A stretch of 64,000 nt of DNA from NCBI GenBank assembly GCA_003054655.1, contig QAYZ01000016.1, positions 806,001 to 870,000 of the forward strand, given 5' to 3'. The notes under the pieces are model-generated. The model ran no database searches and was not told the origin of the DNA. It saw only the letters and a list, made by a program, of their open reading frames with translations. Position numbers and translations under genes: made by a program. Positions 39,640-45,989 of this stretch are shown one piece after another (the stretch's first letter is position 1; each line of letters starts with the position of its first letter). This DNA is from Spartobacteria bacterium LR76 (GTDB lineage Bacteria > Verrucomicrobiota > Verrucomicrobiia > Chthoniobacterales > Terrimicrobiaceae).

Positions 39640-40302
39640 TTGCTGACCGTCATCCCGACTCCGATTGGGAACCTGCAGGATATCACCCTGCGCGCTCTCG
39701 AAGCGTTGCGCGCTGCCGACGTGATCGCCGCCGAGGATACCCGGCACTCCGGCATCCTGCTCCACCATCACGGCATCAGCAAACCGATGATCAGCTTCCA
39801 CGAGCACAACGAAACGGGGAAGACCGCCTCCCTGGTGGAGGAGATCGCCCAGGGCCGCAAAGTCGCGCTTATCACCGACGCGGGCATGCCGGGAATCTCC
39901 GATCCGGGGTTCCGCCTCGTCCGCGCCTGCCGTGAGCGCGACCTCCCTGTCACCGTATTGCCTGGCCCCAGCGCCGTGGTCACCGCCCTGGCCGGCTCGG
40001 GCCTGCCCAGCGACTCGTTTTATTTCGGAGGATTCCTGCCCGTCAAAAGCGGCCAGCGCCGCAATGAACTGGAGGCCGCCACCACCCGCGAAGAGACGAG
40101 TATCTACTTCGAGTCTCCCTATCGGCTGGCCAAAAGCCTCGGCGTCCTGGCCGAGGTGGCTCCCGACGCATCAGTGTGCGTCGCACGTGAACTCAGCAAG
40201 AAATTTGAGGAATACCGGCGAGGGAAGCCTGCCGATCTCGCAGCTCACTACGACGCTCACCCTCCAAAAGGCGAAATCACACTGCTGATCTCGACCAAAT
40301 GA
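39640..40302 (+). CDS. rsmI: 16S rRNA (cytidine-1402-2'-O)-methyltransferase RsmI
   Basis: A 220-residue SAM-dependent methyltransferase of the tetrapyrrole methylase fold. It methylates the 2'-O of C1402 in 16S rRNA, improving decoding fidelity. TPIGNLQDITLRALEAL, AAEDTRHSGILL, ALITDAGMPGISDPG and LPGPSAVVTALAGSGLP are family blocks. No ATG fits; a TTG at 39640 gives the correct N-terminus. The protein is shorter than E. coli RsmI (286) because the C-terminal extra domain is missing. It overlaps the next gene by 4 bases. Confidence 0.92.
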   Translation: MLTVIPTPIGNLQDITLRALEALRAADVIAAEDTRHSGILLHHHGISKPMISFHEHNETGKTASLVEEIAQGRKVALITDAGMPGISDPGFRLVRACRERDLPVTVLPGPSAVVTALAGSGLPSDSFYFGGFLPVKSGQRRNELEAATTREETSIYFESPYRLAKSLGVLAEVAPDASVCVARELSKKFEEYRRGKPADLAAHYDAHPPKGEITLLISTK

Positions 40303-40793
40303 GCGCCGAGCCTCCGTTCCTTCCGGGCGGACGCTCGGTAAGAATCCTGGTCGGCGTCGCCCTTCTTGCCTTTCTTGCGCTCCTGCCCCTCCTGCCGCTC
40401 GGCGGCGGATGGTCTCCGACGTCCTGCACCTTTTATACGCTTACCGGACTCCCCTGCCCGCTTTGCGGCGGCACTCGTGCGGCCAAAGCCTTCCTTCAAG
40501 GAGATCTTCCCGACGCCATCCGCCTCAACGCCCTGGCCATCCCCGCCGTGATCGCCATAGCGACGGTGGCAGCGATCATGATCATCGAGGGACTCCGCGG
40601 CAGACCGCTGCACCCCTGGCAAGCCCTCGTTCAACGCTACGGAAGGTTTCTTCCCTGGCTCCTTCTCGTCCTCATAATCTGGTGGATTCCCCAGATCATA
40701 GGTGCGCTCAGGGGTTCGAAGGCCGAACTGCTGGACTCCAGAAATCCCATTGCCGCCTTCCTCCAGCGTCATGCAGGCAATCAGAATCCTTGA
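40299..40793 (+). CDS. DUF2752 membrane protein
   Basis: A 164-residue protein with three hydrophobic segments. The family mark is TGLPCPLCGGTRAAKAFLQGD, with paired Cys, followed by the conserved RLNALA stretch. DUF2752 proteins are small membrane proteins of unknown function. It sits in the lptE-rsmI unit by a 4-base overlap. The C-terminal 30 residues are hydrophilic. Confidence 0.85.
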   Translation: MSAEPPFLPGGRSVRILVGVALLAFLALLPLLPLGGGWSPTSCTFYTLTGLPCPLCGGTRAAKAFLQGDLPDAIRLNALAIPAVIAIATVAAIMIIEGLRGRPLHPWQALVQRYGRFLPWLLLVLIIWWIPQIIGALRGSKAELLDSRNPIAAFLQRHAGNQNP

Positions 40794-40838
40794 TTTGCGC
40801 TCGACGAAGAGATCGTAAAAACGCTACACGCTCGGACC

Positions 40839-41354
40839 ATGAACTGGTTCTACTCCAAGGACGGCCAACAAGTCGGCCCCGTGGCTTTCACGGAAATCGA
40901 GCGTCTGTACAGCGAAGGTCAGTTGAACGATGACTCGCTCATCTGGCAACAAGGCACCACGAACTGGGTCAAACTGTCCGCCGCCCGCGCGGCCGCCAGC
41001 GAACCAGTACCGGCCGCAGTGCCCGCCCCGGCGATTCCCGTCGCGGAATCCGCTCCCGCCGCCGCGATCCCGGCAGCCAAGGGAAAGACCAGCGGATTTG
41101 CCATCACCTCGCTGGTCCTCGGCATCCTCGGCCTGATCTGCTGCTCGATGTTTCTGGTCAACATCGGCGCAATCGTCTTCGGCCACCTCGCCTTCAACCA
41201 ACTGGCCAAAGATCCTTCCCTGGAAGGTCAGAAGCTGGCCAAGGTCGGTTTGATTCTGGGCTATGTCGGCCTGGTGCTGGGCGTTGTCGTCTGGATCCTC
41301 CAGATCGCCTTCGGCGTCCTGAACTACGCCGCACCGCAGAGTCCGACGTACTAG
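40839..41354 (+). CDS. GYF_2 and DUF4190-type membrane protein
   Basis: A 171-residue protein. Residues 1-50 form a GYF_2 domain (WFYSKDGQQVGPVAFTEI with the later LIWQQGTTNW), which often binds proline-rich peptides. Residues 52-88 are an Ala/Pro linker, and residues 92-160 hold two transmembrane segments of the DUF4190 type (AITSLVLGILGLICCSMFL, VGLILGYVGLVLG). The function is unknown, and the architecture suggests a membrane-bound interaction module. It ends overlapping the convergent der stop by 4 bases. Confidence 0.85.
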   Translation: MNWFYSKDGQQVGPVAFTEIERLYSEGQLNDDSLIWQQGTTNWVKLSAARAAASEPVPAAVPAPAIPVAESAPAAAIPAAKGKTSGFAITSLVLGILGLICCSMFLVNIGAIVFGHLAFNQLAKDPSLEGQKLAKVGLILGYVGLVLGVVVWILQIAFGVLNYAAPQSPTY

Positions 41355-42712
41355 GCCTTCTCCTCCGTCTTCTTCTCTCTCCCGCGCTGCCGTATGATCA
41401 GCGGCAGCCCGGGAAACTCCCATTTCTCACGCAGGCGTGCGCTGAGATAGGTCAGATAGTTGTCCGTGAGCAGGCGGGTATCATTGCCGAAAAGCACGAT
41501 CTGCGGCGGCTCAAAAGCGGATGGTCTCTCTGCCGCCACCTGGGTGGCGTAGAGGAGCTTGAAGCGCCGGGTGCCGCGCATCGGCGGCTGCTGCTTTTCC
41601 ATGACCATGCGCAGGAGCCGGTTCAGTTCACCCGTGCCGGCGCGGCGGGACGCATGCTGGCGCACCTTTTCGATCATGGTGAACAGACGGCGCACGTTCT
41701 CGCCAGTCTTGGCGGACAAAACGACGACCGGAGCATAAGGAAGGAAAAACAATTCATCCCGCACCCGCGCAATGTGTTCCTTCAGCGACTCGGCTTCCGT
41801 CATGTCGGGATCGGAAATCAGATCCCACTTGTTCAGCACGATGATCGCCGCCTTGTAGGATTTCTGAATCAAGCCCGCGATCTTCTTGTCCTGGGCGGTA
41901 ACCCCAGAGGTCACGTCGATCACCAGCACACAGAGATCCGCACGGCGAATCGTCTCCTCGGACCGCATCACGCTGAAGACCTCGACGGACGTGTTGTGCT
42001 TGGAGCGATGACGGATGCCCGCCGTGTCGCAGAGCACGTATTTGCGCCCTTCGCGCTCGCACAGGATGTCGACCGCATCGCGCGTCGTGCCTGGGATGTC
42101 GCTCACGATGGCTCGCTTGTCGTCCAGAATGGCGTTGATCAGCGAGGACTTGCCGACATTGGGCCGTCCCACCAGGGCCAGCTTCGGAAGCCGGGCAAAA
42201 TCTTCCTCGCCTTCCTGCGGAGGCGGCAGCAGGCGATCCACGGCCTCGATCAATTCATCAATCCCACGGCCATGAGCCGCACTGACATCCCGCACCTCCG
42301 CAAAGCCAAGGGAGGCAAAATCGAGGACAAAATCCTCGTGAGCATCGGTATCGACCTTGTTGACGACCAGAATGACCGGGCGACCGGAGCTGCGAATCTT
42401 GGCGGCCAGCGTCTGGTCGAGAGGGGTCACGCCATTTTGTCCATCGACCACGAAAAGGAGGACATTGGCACCCGCAATGGCGATTTCCGCCGCTTCCTGC
42501 GTCGGCTCCGCAAAATCCGGGTCCGGATCGGCACCGATGCCTCCGGTGTCCACGATTTCAAAAGGCTGTCGGCCGAGCCTGCACTTGGCTGTGATTCGGT
42601 CCCGGGTGACTCCTGGCTGATCGTGGACAATAGAAATCCTCCGTCCTGCGAGACGGTTAAAGAGTGCTGATTTTCCTACGTTCGGTCGTCCTACGATGGC
42701 AACGCTATGCAT
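41351..42712 (-). CDS. der: Ribosome biogenesis GTPase Der (EngA)
   Basis: A 453-residue Der with its hallmark two tandem G domains. G1 motifs are GRPNVGKSALFNRL and GRPNVGKSSLINAI; G3 motifs DTGG and DTAG occur in each, and NKVD/NKWD are the G4 motifs. A C-terminal KH-like domain follows. Der is needed for 50S assembly. Its start overlaps the pgsA end by 8 bases. The basic tail (RQRGREKKTEEKA) is normal. Confidence 0.97.
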   Translation of the reverse strand: MHSVAIVGRPNVGKSALFNRLAGRRISIVHDQPGVTRDRITAKCRLGRQPFEIVDTGGIGADPDPDFAEPTQEAAEIAIAGANVLLFVVDGQNGVTPLDQTLAAKIRSSGRPVILVVNKVDTDAHEDFVLDFASLGFAEVRDVSAAHGRGIDELIEAVDRLLPPPQEGEEDFARLPKLALVGRPNVGKSSLINAILDDKRAIVSDIPGTTRDAVDILCEREGRKYVLCDTAGIRHRSKHNTSVEVFSVMRSEETIRRADLCVLVIDVTSGVTAQDKKIAGLIQKSYKAAIIVLNKWDLISDPDMTEAESLKEHIARVRDELFFLPYAPVVVLSAKTGENVRRLFTMIEKVRQHASRRAGTGELNRLLRMVMEKQQPPMRGTRRFKLLYATQVAAERPSAFEPPQIVLFGNDTRLLTDNYLTYLSARLREKWEFPGLPLIIRQRGREKKTEEKA

Positions 42713-43295
42713 GGGGCGTGTCGTGATGCCTGAGCTGGCTCACTCCATCAAGCACATAACCGAGTCCGCTGAGAAGGGTAAACGCTCCGGCGGCGTAAAT
42801 CGGGTACAAATGACCGGGTAATTGGAGCATCACCCAGGCCAGTGCCACCATCTGGGTGGCGGTGGCGGTTTTGCCGATCAGGCTCGGGCGTACTTCGAGC
42901 TTCCCGTTGAGATGCTTGACCACGAGACAGCCTGTCATGATGACGATATCCCGTGCGATCACCAGGACGAGAAACCACAGGGGGAACGCATAGGTCCACT
43001 TGCTGAATGTCAGCGTAATGAGCGCAGTGAGGAGGAGCCCCTTGTCGGCGATGGGATCAAGCACCGCCCCCACCCGGCTCATCTGCCCAAACTTGCGAGC
43101 CACCCAGCCATCGAGCATGTCGGTGACCGACGCGGTGATGAAGACAATGATGGAGGCGATGCGCAGCCACTCCTCTGGCCTGCCGTCCGCAATGCTCCGC
43201 CCGTAGTAAACGGCAAACAGGACAAAAACCGGGATGAGGAGGATCCGCACCACGGTGATGTGGTTTGCGAGTGTCATGATCTTCATTTTCATCAT
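42705..43295 (-). CDS. pgsA: CDP-diacylglycerol--glycerol-3-phosphate 3-phosphatidyltransferase
   Basis: A protein of about 196 residues with a CDP-alcohol phosphatidyltransferase motif, DMLDGWVARKFGQMSRV followed by GAVLDPIADK, giving D-x2-DG-x2-AR-x8-G-x3-D-x3-D. It makes phosphatidylglycerol phosphate, precursor of phosphatidylglycerol and cardiolipin. Four to five hydrophobic segments follow. The ATG at 43295 has AGAGGA just upstream and is preferred over the frame start at 43319. The specificity (PgsA versus other CDP-alcohol transferases) rests on motif spacing and length. It overlaps der. Confidence 0.9.
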   Translation of the reverse strand: MMKMKIMTLANHITVVRILLIPVFVLFAVYYGRSIADGRPEEWLRIASIIVFITASVTDMLDGWVARKFGQMSRVGAVLDPIADKGLLLTALITLTFSKWTYAFPLWFLVLVIARDIVIMTGCLVVKHLNGKLEVRPSLIGKTATATQMVALAWVMLQLPGHLYPIYAAGAFTLLSGLGYVLDGVSQLRHHDTPHA

Positions 43296-43339
43296 CAGTT
43301 CCTCTCGTTCCCAGCGCAAATTTATGCCTCACTCTGCGG

Positions 43340-44491
43340 ATGGATTCGCGCGTTTGGTTGATCGGCATCCCTGTCGTGCTGTTGGTGCTGGCTTCCGGAG
43401 TACCTTCGTTGCGACGCGCCTATCTGGATGGATGGCGGTGTGTACTGCGCCACGGGGCGCTCTGGAAGGTCCCCGCCGGATTTGCCCTCGCCTACGGGGT
43501 GTTCGCTGGCGCACTGGAAATGTGGCTGCTGAACCTGGCCGGCCGCGACTTGCGCCCTGTGTTTCACTTCAATACAGCTCCGCCCGACCTTTCGCCGCTG
43601 ATTGGCGCGGGCCTCGTTCCGGCCGCAGAGCAACTGGCCGCCACCCTGACCTGTCTTGTCTCGGTATTCCCTCTTTCCTGCATCGCCGCCCTGCTCCTGC
43701 TGGTGAACTATCGCGGGCTGGCTCGGGAAATATTCAGGATGGCGCGGGCGCGCTATGGACGGGGCGTCTGGATCATCCTGCCCATCGCCCTGATATGTAC
43801 CTTGTCGGCGCTGATAAAACCGGTTTCGTTCCTCGCTCTCCCCTTTGTTTCCAGGGTGCTGGACACGCCCTCCATTCTCGGTCTGGGTGCGACGATCAAT
43901 CTTCTTTCCTTCATCTTCGAGTTCCTGCTCGGGACGACGATCCAGCTCTGCCTGCTCTTCACCGCCTATGGCTGGGTGCGCGGCCTGAGCCTCAATGATG
44001 AGAGGCTTTTGCCTTTCGCTGTGCGCCGTTTGGGCTACGTATTGAAGTGGTCGCTTGTGATCGTCGCCGCCACACTTCTCATCTTTCACCTGCCCTTCCT
44101 CTGGGATTCGCTGCACTCGGGCAGCATGACATGGAATCCCGAGCTTTGGGCGCGCCCGTTTCTTTCCGTCGCCACGTTGCTTTTCGGAACCGTGCAGATC
44201 CACCTCGCCTTTCACAACACGACGCTCAAGGGTGCCGTCATCGCCAACTTCCGCTTCCTGCGAACCAGCGGCCTGCACTACCTGGGCTTCCTTCTCACCG
44301 CATTTGGATTTCTCCTCATCGCGCAGGTCGTACCGACATTCGGCCTGGAGATTTTCGGCGGCTCTCTCGCGGGTGTCGCGTGGGCCATCCTCGCCCAGAC
44401 GCTGGCTGCGGGCATCGGCGGCTGGCTGCTCGCATCGTGGGTTTGTTTCTTCAAGCAACGTTCCAACGGCGGAAAGGAAATCGCGTATTGA
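43340..44491 (+). CDS. Polytopic membrane protein, unknown function
   Basis: A 383-residue protein with roughly eight to ten hydrophobic segments and no recognisable catalytic motif. Hydrophilic loops are short. It starts 44 bases from the divergent pgsA. It is followed by a degenerate ABC ATPase through a TTGA overlap and then by a squalene/phytoene-synthase-type enzyme by a GTGA overlap. The architecture does not match the FtsX/LolE-type permeases that would normally pair with such an ATPase. It could be a lipid-related membrane protein, but that is inference. Confidence 0.7.
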   Translation: MDSRVWLIGIPVVLLVLASGVPSLRRAYLDGWRCVLRHGALWKVPAGFALAYGVFAGALEMWLLNLAGRDLRPVFHFNTAPPDLSPLIGAGLVPAAEQLAATLTCLVSVFPLSCIAALLLLVNYRGLAREIFRMARARYGRGVWIILPIALICTLSALIKPVSFLALPFVSRVLDTPSILGLGATINLLSFIFEFLLGTTIQLCLLFTAYGWVRGLSLNDERLLPFAVRRLGYVLKWSLVIVAATLLIFHLPFLWDSLHSGSMTWNPELWARPFLSVATLLFGTVQIHLAFHNTTLKGAVIANFRFLRTSGLHYLGFLLTAFGFLLIAQVVPTFGLEIFGGSLAGVAWAILAQTLAAGIGGWLLASWVCFFKQRSNGGKEIAY

Positions 44492-45165
44492 AACCGCTCG
44501 CCCTCGCCTGTCAGCAGATCACGTGTCATCGCCCGGCCTGGAATGAAGCCGGACCGGCCTCGGTTCATGACGTGACCGCGTCCTTCGCCTTCGGCGAGTT
44601 TTGCGCCATCACCGGCCCCGATGGAAGCGGCAAGGGCCTCCTCATGAATGTCCTCGGCCTCATGGAGCAGCCCGACTGCGGGGCTGTCGCCGTAGGGGAG
44701 TACGATGCCTCCGCTCTCGCGCTTGAGGAAATGCGCCAGTTGCGCAATGAGGCCTTCGGGTTTCTCTTCAATCACCCCTGCCTGCTCCCATCCTTCTCCG
44801 TCGCGGAAAATGTCGCCATGCCGCTTTTCCGCATCTGCGGAGGGGATGCGAAGGGCGTGCGCGCCCGTACGCTGGAGGTGCTCGAGTTTTGCGGCATCGC
44901 TCATCTGGAGGGCGATCTGGCCGGCCGTCTGGACTTTTCCCAGCGCCGCACGGTTGCGCTGGCGCGAGCGCTGGCGCATGACCCGGATATCCTCCTGATC
45001 CTCTCTCCCTCCGCGTCCGAAGACCTCCTCCATCTGGCTCGCCGCGCCGCGGTGGAGCTCAACCGCTGCGTGATCTGGGCGGGAGGAGAGGAGCAGTTGC
45101 AACACCACGCCCATCGCCTCATCCAGATGGATCGCGGCAGAATCCTCAGCGACTACCGCCAGTGA
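44488..45165 (+). CDS. Degenerate ABC ATPase (LolD-like scaffold), likely pseudo-ATPase
   Basis: A 225-residue protein from a TTG start that overlaps the upstream stop (TTGA), preceded by GGAAAGGAAA. The LolD-type frame is clear (LLPSFSVAENVAMPL, VALARALAHDPD), yet each nucleotide motif is broken. Walker A is GPDGSGKG (Ser/Thr to Gly). The Q-loop Gln is Asn95 (FLFNHPC). The signature is LDFSQ for LSGGQ. Walker B and catalytic Glu read ILLILSP where LLLADEP is expected. The H-loop His is Gly near residue 199. The reading frame is intact, so it is a pseudoenzyme and not a pseudogene. It may act as a structural partner. Confidence 0.75.
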   Translation: MKPLALACQQITCHRPAWNEAGPASVHDVTASFAFGEFCAITGPDGSGKGLLMNVLGLMEQPDCGAVAVGEYDASALALEEMRQLRNEAFGFLFNHPCLLPSFSVAENVAMPLFRICGGDAKGVRARTLEVLEFCGIAHLEGDLAGRLDFSQRRTVALARALAHDPDILLILSPSASEDLLHLARRAAVELNRCVIWAGGEEQLQHHAHRLIQMDRGRILSDYRQ

Positions 45166-45989
45166 ACTCACCCACCCTCACCCTGGCCTCCGACAGCGGC
45201 GCAAAAAACTCCAACCTCGCCTTTGCCCTCGGCAGCCTCCCGGCCCCGCGGCGGCGGGACGCCATGGTTTTCTACGCATTCTGCCGGGAGATCGACGACA
45301 TTGCCGACGAGGCGGGCAGGACGGCAGAGGAAAGACACCGGCTTCTCAATGCCTGGAAGGACGGCTTGCGCGGGAAGCAGCCAATACCCGACAGTCTGCA
45401 GGACATCATCACCCGCCACCGCCTCGATCCGGAACTGCTTGTGCAAATCGTCGAAGGGGTCGAGATGGATATTGAGCCGGGCGACTTCGAGACCTTCACC
45501 CACCTGCGCACCTACTGCTGGCATGTCGCCAGCGCCGTGGGCCTGGCCAGCATCAAGCTCTTCGGCTGCACCGATGCCAAGAGCTCCCGCTACGCGGAGG
45601 ACCTTGGCTACGCCCTGCAAATCACCAACATCATCCGCGATGTCGGCGAGGATGCCGCCCTGGGCAGGATTTATCTTCCCATCGAGGATACCGAGCGCTT
45701 CGGCGTTGATCGAACCCAGCTCCGCCATGGAGTCGCGACCGGACGCTTCCGGGAACTCCTCGAGTTTGAAGCCGCCCGCGCCCGGGAATATTTTGCCGGG
45801 GCCCGCCAATCCATCACCTCCCAGGACGCCCGGGCTCTGCTGCCCGCCGAAACCATGCGCGAAATCTACTCCCGACTGCTCGACCGCATGGAAAGCGACG
45901 GCTTCCGCGTGCTGGAAACCCGCTACCGGCTTTCCAAGATGGAAAAGCTCGCGATTTTGCTCAAGAAGCGAATCGGTTTTCCTTGGTGA
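45162..45989 (+). CDS. Squalene/phytoene synthase-family enzyme (HpnC/HpnD-like)
   Basis: A 275-residue trans-isoprenyl diphosphate synthase, head-to-head type. The first Asp motif is FCREIDDIADE (Asp45-Asp49). The second is ITNIIRDVGEDAALGRIYLP, with Asp160 and Asp164. Members condense two farnesyl or geranylgeranyl diphosphates to presqualene, squalene or phytoene. The closest look is HpnD/CrtB. A GTG start overlaps the preceding stop (GTGA). No hopanoid cyclase or desaturase is near, so the final product is open. It overlaps the convergent USP gene by 29 bases. Confidence 0.85.
   Translation: MNSPTLTLASDSGAKNSNLAFALGSLPAPRRRDAMVFYAFCREIDDIADEAGRTAEERHRLLNAWKDGLRGKQPIPDSLQDIITRHRLDPELLVQIVEGVEMDIEPGDFETFTHLRTYCWHVASAVGLASIKLFGCTDAKSSRYAEDLGYALQITNIIRDVGEDAALGRIYLPIEDTERFGVDRTQLRHGVATGRFRELLEFEAARAREYFAGARQSITSQDARALLPAETMREIYSRLLDRMESDGFRVLETRYRLSKMEKLAILLKKRIGFPW

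Follow-up and report, generated by a model that had tools for sequence, protein, structure and literature searches.

We found that a gene in the window (the whole stretch of 64,000 nucleotides analysed here) encodes a pseudo-ATPase, an ABC-type protein that has lost the ATP-hydrolysing parts of a motor yet is preserved by selection, and that therefore probably serves in docking or regulation instead of acting as a motor. Its status as selected and non-catalytic is well supported by sequence comparison, namely by motif loss in 49 orthologues and low dN/dS, which upholds the original prediction of a retained pseudo-ATPase with a non-catalytic role. On balance, we lean toward the notion that this LolD-derived protein was repurposed as a groove-binding adaptor that would place or regulate, at the membrane, the squalene-synthase-type enzyme encoded next to it (SQS).

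The pseudo-ATPase gene and its product

The features of the locus are as follows (positions in the window).

42705..43319, minus strand: pgsA-like CDP-alcohol phosphatidyltransferase, a divergent neighbour that is retained in the genus and also in several family members, f9 and f12
43340..44491, plus strand: MEM, multi-helix membrane protein with a CTL/PNS1- and CysZ-like predicted structure; overlaps the pseudo-ATPase gene by 4 nt
44488..45165, plus strand: pseudo-ABC-ATPase, predicted LolD-derived NBD fold, 225 aa (open frame, ABC_tran match, AF2 model, clade of degenerate orthologues)
44614..44637, plus strand: former Walker A, residues 43-50, GPDGSGKG, with Ser/Thr50 replaced by Gly and Lys49 retained (alignment to canonical ATPases)
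44758..44832, plus strand: residues 91-115, GFLFNHPCLLPSFSVAENVAMPLFR, the most constrained segment, with no loss other than that of the Q-loop Gln (residue 95) (pN/pS, column conservation, LolD alignment)
44929..44946, plus strand: former signature, residues 148-153, LDFSQR replacing LSGGQQ (alignment to canonical ATPases)
44989..45012, plus strand: former Walker B and catalytic Glu, residues 168-175, ILLILSPS, after which the D-loop is lost through a 6-residue deletion (alignment)
45082..45087, plus strand: former H-loop, residues 199-200, GG replacing TH (alignment)
45162..45989, plus strand: SQS, squalene/phytoene-synthase family, HpnD-like, with both Asp-rich motifs; overlaps the pseudo-ATPase gene by 4 nt (PF00494, HpnD model)

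The reading frame at 44488-45165 (+) is open, as had been predicted. It runs uninterrupted from a TTG start to a TGA stop and encodes 225 amino acids. The coupling to both neighbours that had been proposed was also found, as a 4-nt overlap on each side: TTGA at 44488-44491, where the start lies inside the MEM stop codon, and GTGA at 45162-45165, shared with SQS.

The product has a LolD-like scaffold, in agreement with the original prediction. It matched ABC_tran (PF00005) with 58 bits (Pfam cutoff 25), and its top NCBIfam model was LolD (TIGR02211) with 89.6 bits, far below the equivalog cutoff of 307.75. The AF2 model (pLDDT 92.3, pTM 0.90) most resembled MJ0796 (Z 29), Aquifex Aq_297 (Z 28.9) and the MacB NBD (Z 28.7); by sequence, the nearest relative among solved structures was LolD. 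The predicted structure is thus an ABC NBD fold, with RecA-like and helical subdomains, of the ABC_tran family.

Loss of the catalytic motifs

The window protein was aligned with canonical ATPases from its own and other genomes. At the Q-loop it reads FLFN (Gln replaced by Asn), at the signature LDFSQ instead of LSGGQ, at Walker B and the catalytic Glu LILSP compared with canonical LLADEP, and at the H-loop AGG compared with VTH; a six-residue deletion covers the D-loop. We scored eight core residues, which include the Walker A Lys and Ser/Thr, the Q-loop Gln, LSGGQ, the Walker B Asp, the catalytic Glu and the H-loop His. Only Lys49 is kept (1/8). Judged by these residues, the window protein would not be an active ABC ATPase. 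The earlier statement that every nucleotide-handling motif is lost thus stands for all core residues but one: the Walker A pattern GxxGxGK survives with Lys49.

Independently assembled genomes of the genus show the same losses, as do other members of the order, and we therefore rejected chance and sequencing or assembly error. Among 49 aligned orthologues from seven families, 0-4 of the eight core residues were canonical, with 39 of the 49 having 0 or 1, compared with 6-8 of eight in 75 canonical relatives. The H-loop His and Walker B Asp were canonical in none of the 49. We looked for orthologues with intact motifs, a check proposed with the original prediction, and found none in this set; even in the two best-preserved (in genomes G042 and G038) most motifs are missing. 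About two thirds of the 49 orthologues, but none of the 75 canonical relatives, have a clearly shorter stretch after Walker B. The Walker A lysine is retained in 32/49, so weak nucleotide or phosphate binding may persist.

Purifying selection and a conserved segment

Between congeners, dN/dS (Nei-Gojobori) of the pseudo-ATPase gene was 0.044 (G000, the window's genome, with G002), 0.071 (G000 with G001) and 0.077 (G002 with G001), which is not near the value of 1 that the original prediction had named as a sign of decay. The corresponding values were 0.11-0.14 for MEM and 0.06-0.09 for SQS, so that the pseudo-ATPase gene lies below MEM and is similar to SQS. We also pooled twelve close pairs and calculated pN/pS for parts of the protein: 0.244 at the former catalytic sites, 0.235 for the rest and 0.045 for residues 91-115. 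Several gene pairs are close or saturated, which makes individual dN/dS or pN/pS values approximate, but pooling gives a clear contrast. The former catalytic sites now drift at the same rate as other residues of the protein, and residues 91-115 (GFLFxHPxLLPSFTVAENVAMPxF) are about five times more constrained than the remainder.

Column entropy gave the same contrast. At the former catalytic sites it was mostly 1.3-3.4 bits in the pseudo-ATPase set, whereas these sites are nearly invariant in canonical relatives. F94, L99, E107, N108, A110, R160 and P166 are invariant in the pseudo-ATPase set, and several columns of residues 91-115 are better conserved there than in the canonical relatives.

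These measurements bear on whether the gene might be a decaying pseudogene that is still open by chance. Its catalytic motifs are gone and it has been lost repeatedly in the order, but frames are intact across seven families, the 25-residue segment is better conserved than in active relatives, and no half-decayed remnants were found beside SQS in genomes that lack the gene. Taken with the dN/dS of 0.04-0.08, the open frames and the conserved segment led us to reject decay for the genus, and for the gene in general we consider it very improbable.

The drift of the former catalytic positions also argues against an explanation in which the protein, as the degenerate partner in a heterodimeric ABC transporter, binds ATP without hydrolysis, like Pdr5 NBD1 or the TM287/288 site. 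ATP-binding degenerate sites are well documented [PMC7756269], and the lysine kept in 32 of 49 orthologues would suit such a role. However, known degenerate sites are conserved among orthologues [PMC7756269], the D-loop is deleted in most orthologues of the pseudo-ATPase, and neither a canonical NBD nor a permease is adjacent. We regard this explanation as improbable.

Residues 91-115 align with the last part of the Q-loop and the first part of the helical subdomain in E. coli LolD. This is the side of the helical subdomain that receives the coupling helix in ABC transporters. By analogy, the segment would be expected to line a LolD-type coupling-helix groove, an assignment that rests on homology rather than on the structure of a complex. 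Its conservation may come partly from packing of the fold rather than from a partner surface.

A groove of this kind raises the possibility that the protein acts on an unlinked LolCE/MacB-type (FtsX-family) permease as a decoy or regulator, rivalling true LolD for the coupling helix and dampening transport. LolD would be expected to hold LolC/LolE through the very segment that is conserved here, the protein descends from the LolD/MacB/FtsE branch, and canonical LolD-like ATPases are encoded in the same genome. On the other hand, no permease gene adjoins the pseudo-ATPase gene in any locus examined and synteny indicates SQS. The groove also has a consensus of its own (HP, SFTVAENVAMP), which suggests a partner of its own. 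We think a decoy of this kind quite unlikely.

Distribution and history

The pseudo-ATPase was found in Chthoniobacterales, an order of soil and freshwater bacteria. Copies in congeners are 95% and 87-88% identical to the window protein and those in other family members 37-59%. When 84,980 named genomes were scanned with a sequence pattern, matches came from Verrucomicrobia of Chthoniobacterales/Terrimicrobiaceae/Spartobacteria type. Of 197 genomes of the order searched with a profile, 65 had matches of at least 146 bits, and orthologues occur in seven families (f1, f5, f6, f7, f9, f10 and f12). In a search of 387 genomes of the phylum, no match from outside the order exceeded 134 bits. Of these outside matches, the highest-scoring ones that were aligned group with canonical relatives, and we rejected spread beyond the order. 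The weaker members in f5 and f6 reach no more than 116-187 bits with such profiles, so the search could have overlooked an outgroup copy of similar divergence.

In a quick single-gene tree, which has some long branches, all the orthologues fall together in a single clade (SH-aLRT 100). Mapped on a tree of SQS, also a single-gene tree, presence and absence require about 10 changes, of which at least 7 are forced by well-supported branches. A single clade with scattered presence fits one early gain followed by repeated losses.

Two loci, L255 (G007) and L028 (G004), carry a pseudo-ATPase and an SQS that are both on unusually long branches. Genome G021 has another, partial pseudo-ATPase copy in locus L073 (1800-2701), with a further SQS-like match after it. 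These are 39% and 45% identical to their counterparts in the window and may be a duplicate or contamination.

Linkage to SQS

The gene downstream of the pseudo-ATPase encodes a squalene/phytoene-synthase family protein. SQS scored 216 bits with PF00494 and 247 bits with the HpnD model, below its cutoff of 278.6. Its translation contains both Asp-rich motifs (DDIAD and NIIRDVGEDA), which are also present in the orthologues of the genus, and the gene is single-copy. In G007 the second Asp-rich motif of SQS is altered (NIARDVRSDAEEGRCY).

We found that this linkage is conserved. SQS lies directly downstream of the pseudo-ATPase gene in 59 of the 60 genomes in which both positions are known, so that orthologues sit beside the same SQS gene, a comparison that had been proposed with the original prediction. 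Of 48 pseudo-ATPase gene ends examined, 45 have the start-stop overlap form NTGA (ATGA 34, GTGA 10, TTGA 1). The exception to the linkage is G092 (L256 2955-3659), where the pseudo-ATPase gene is still behind MEM and SQS is elsewhere on the contig. This locus is useful for telling SQS and MEM apart as partners.

SQS also occurs without the pseudo-ATPase, in f8, f13, f4 and other families. The pseudo-ATPase is thus accessory to SQS, which many lineages keep without it. Two 0.9-Mb single-contig genomes of the order, G030 (L163) and G039 (L189), retain SQS. Neither showed a pseudo-ATPase next to SQS, MEM was not seen beside it in G039, and a search of G030 for squalene-hopene cyclase gave no match.

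The window's own genome encodes a squalene-hopene cyclase (G000:C13:449687). It also encodes a full-length HpnE-like protein, a weak match in a search that gave matches in every control genome and is uninformative save for a few full-length matches. Squalene-hopene cyclase was not detected in four carriers of the pseudo-ATPase (G005, G006, G033 and G046), and, with the caveat that draft genomes may be incomplete, we rejected an obligate link to hopanoids.

MEM and the upstream genes

A Pfam search with MEM gave no match. Its predicted structure, a shallow model (pLDDT 75), matched PNS1 (Z 14.7, 265 aligned residues, rmsd 4.5), CTL1 (Z 14.5) and CysZ (Z 10.0), and the next unrelated structure had Z 5.5. 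MEM may be a bacterial relative of the CTL/CysZ fold. Neither its sequence nor its predicted fold agrees with an ABC permease, including the FtsX type, and we rejected that assignment.

MEM could still be what the pseudo-ATPase binds. In this explanation the pseudo-ATPase is the non-catalytic subunit of a membrane complex with MEM, and the groove holds a cytoplasmic helix of MEM. The genes overlap by 4 nt in the window, the order MEM-pseudo-ATPase recurs in f5, f6, f7 (G046), f9 and part of f1, and in G092 the pseudo-ATPase remains with MEM though SQS has moved. However, MEM was not detected in the listed genomes of f1 genera g2, g3 and g4, nor found beside the f12 copies, although the pseudo-ATPase is kept there. 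Conversely, many f8 and f4 genomes without a pseudo-ATPase are among the 105 of 197 genomes of the order that have MEM. The predicted CTL/CysZ-like fold of MEM and the lack of significant rate covariation (below) also count against such a complex, and we judge it unlikely, if worth keeping in mind.

Beyond pgsA lies der, and this divergent upstream pair recurs in the genus, in some family members and in f9 and f12. Elsewhere in the window, at 40299-41354 (+), a DUF2752 gene and a GYF/DUF4190 gene are 60% and 44% identical between G000 and G002, compared with 90-99% for the genes flanking them; for this pair G001 is closer (79%). This suggests that the pair was replaced or has diverged fast.

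A proposed groove-binding adaptor of the SQS operon

We return to the adaptor reading. A LolD-type NBD would have been captured once, beside a squalene/presqualene synthase gene, before or early in the radiation of Chthoniobacterales. ATP hydrolysis would then have been lost; canonical ATP-driven NBD dimerisation would almost certainly, and ATP binding probably, have gone as well. The NBD fold would have been kept, above all the groove by which LolD grips the short coupling helix of its membrane partner. The protein would now serve as a stable docking adaptor whose groove binds a partner helix, and docking would place or regulate the squalene-synthase-type enzyme at the membrane. We infer both the use of the groove as a binding site, by analogy with LolD, and the effect, recruitment or regulation.

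Three candidates for the partner have different grounds in their favour: synteny points to SQS, the G092 locus and the shared operon to MEM, and descent to an unlinked LolCE-type permease. With the rate of Der removed, the rate of the pseudo-ATPase covaried with that of SQS (partial r 0.33, p 0.018). Covariation with MEM was not significant (partial r 0.16-0.22; for 0.22, with Der removed, p 0.15). This weakly favours SQS over MEM. SQS covaries equally with the unrelated control ProB, so covariation does not decide the partner. Adjacency to a housekeeping gene can also last without interaction. That SQS is the direct partner is a serious possibility, to which we give somewhat less than an even chance. 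The broader proposal, that a family of stand-alone ABC pseudo-ATPases is a dedicated adaptor of a triterpenoid-forming SQS, with a groove that holds a helix from the enzyme or from a membrane partner and determines where squalene or hopanoids are made, is more tentative still.

If it is true that the pseudo-ATPase serves SQS, it would point to a previously unrecognised layer of control of bacterial squalene/hopanoid synthesis in a widespread order. Such a role is testable in the cultured genus Terrimicrobium.

Comparison with known systems

The pseudo-ATPase shares with LolD, the ATPase of LolCDE (type VII, with MacB and FtsE), the NBD fold, the best sequence match among solved structures and the segment LLPxFTxxENVAMPL. 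In contrast to LolD, it lacks the Walker A Ser/Thr, Q-loop Gln, LSGGQ, Walker B Asp and Glu, H-loop His and D-loop, and its score with the LolD model (89.6 bits compared with 307.75) places it outside that equivalog. Nor does a LolC/LolE-type (FtsX-family) permease adjoin it; its neighbours in the loci examined are MEM, SQS and pgsA.

Degenerate sites of heterodimeric ABC exporters (TM287/288, TAP, Pdr5 and CFTR) likewise have lost catalytic residues in an NBD under selection. There, the altered form is kept among orthologues and paired with an active site [PMC7756269]. These sites thus have a fixed altered form, a canonical NBD as partner and a transporter to serve. In the pseudo-ATPase, by contrast, the motifs drift, with former catalytic columns scattered and their pN/pS equal to that of the rest. 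The protein of 225 aa stands alone, with no TMD or canonical NBD fused or encoded alongside, and it is linked to a terpenoid enzyme.

The squalene genes HpnC, HpnD and HpnE belong to the same family as the downstream SQS, and a squalene-hopene cyclase is encoded in the same genome. The SQS studied here differs in being single-copy and HpnD-like but below the HpnD cutoff, and HpnE-like matches are weak. We know of no ABC-like gene in the HpnC/HpnD/HpnE pathway.

A stand-alone ABC pseudo-ATPase or LolD-like pseudoenzyme had no described counterpart in the open-access literature searched. Among pseudoenzymes the pseudokinases are well known, but the same search yielded no free-standing ABC domain that is strongly selected yet devoid of nucleotide chemistry. 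Conserved loss of catalysis together with purifying selection marks a pseudoenzyme, and both are found here. As in the pseudokinases and other pseudoenzymes [PMC8141879], the fold is kept, catalysis is lost and a surface for docking or allostery appears to be under selection. The pseudo-ATPase would be a natural separation of the grip of an ABC domain on its partner helix from the ATP cycle, so that the coupling groove can be studied alone.
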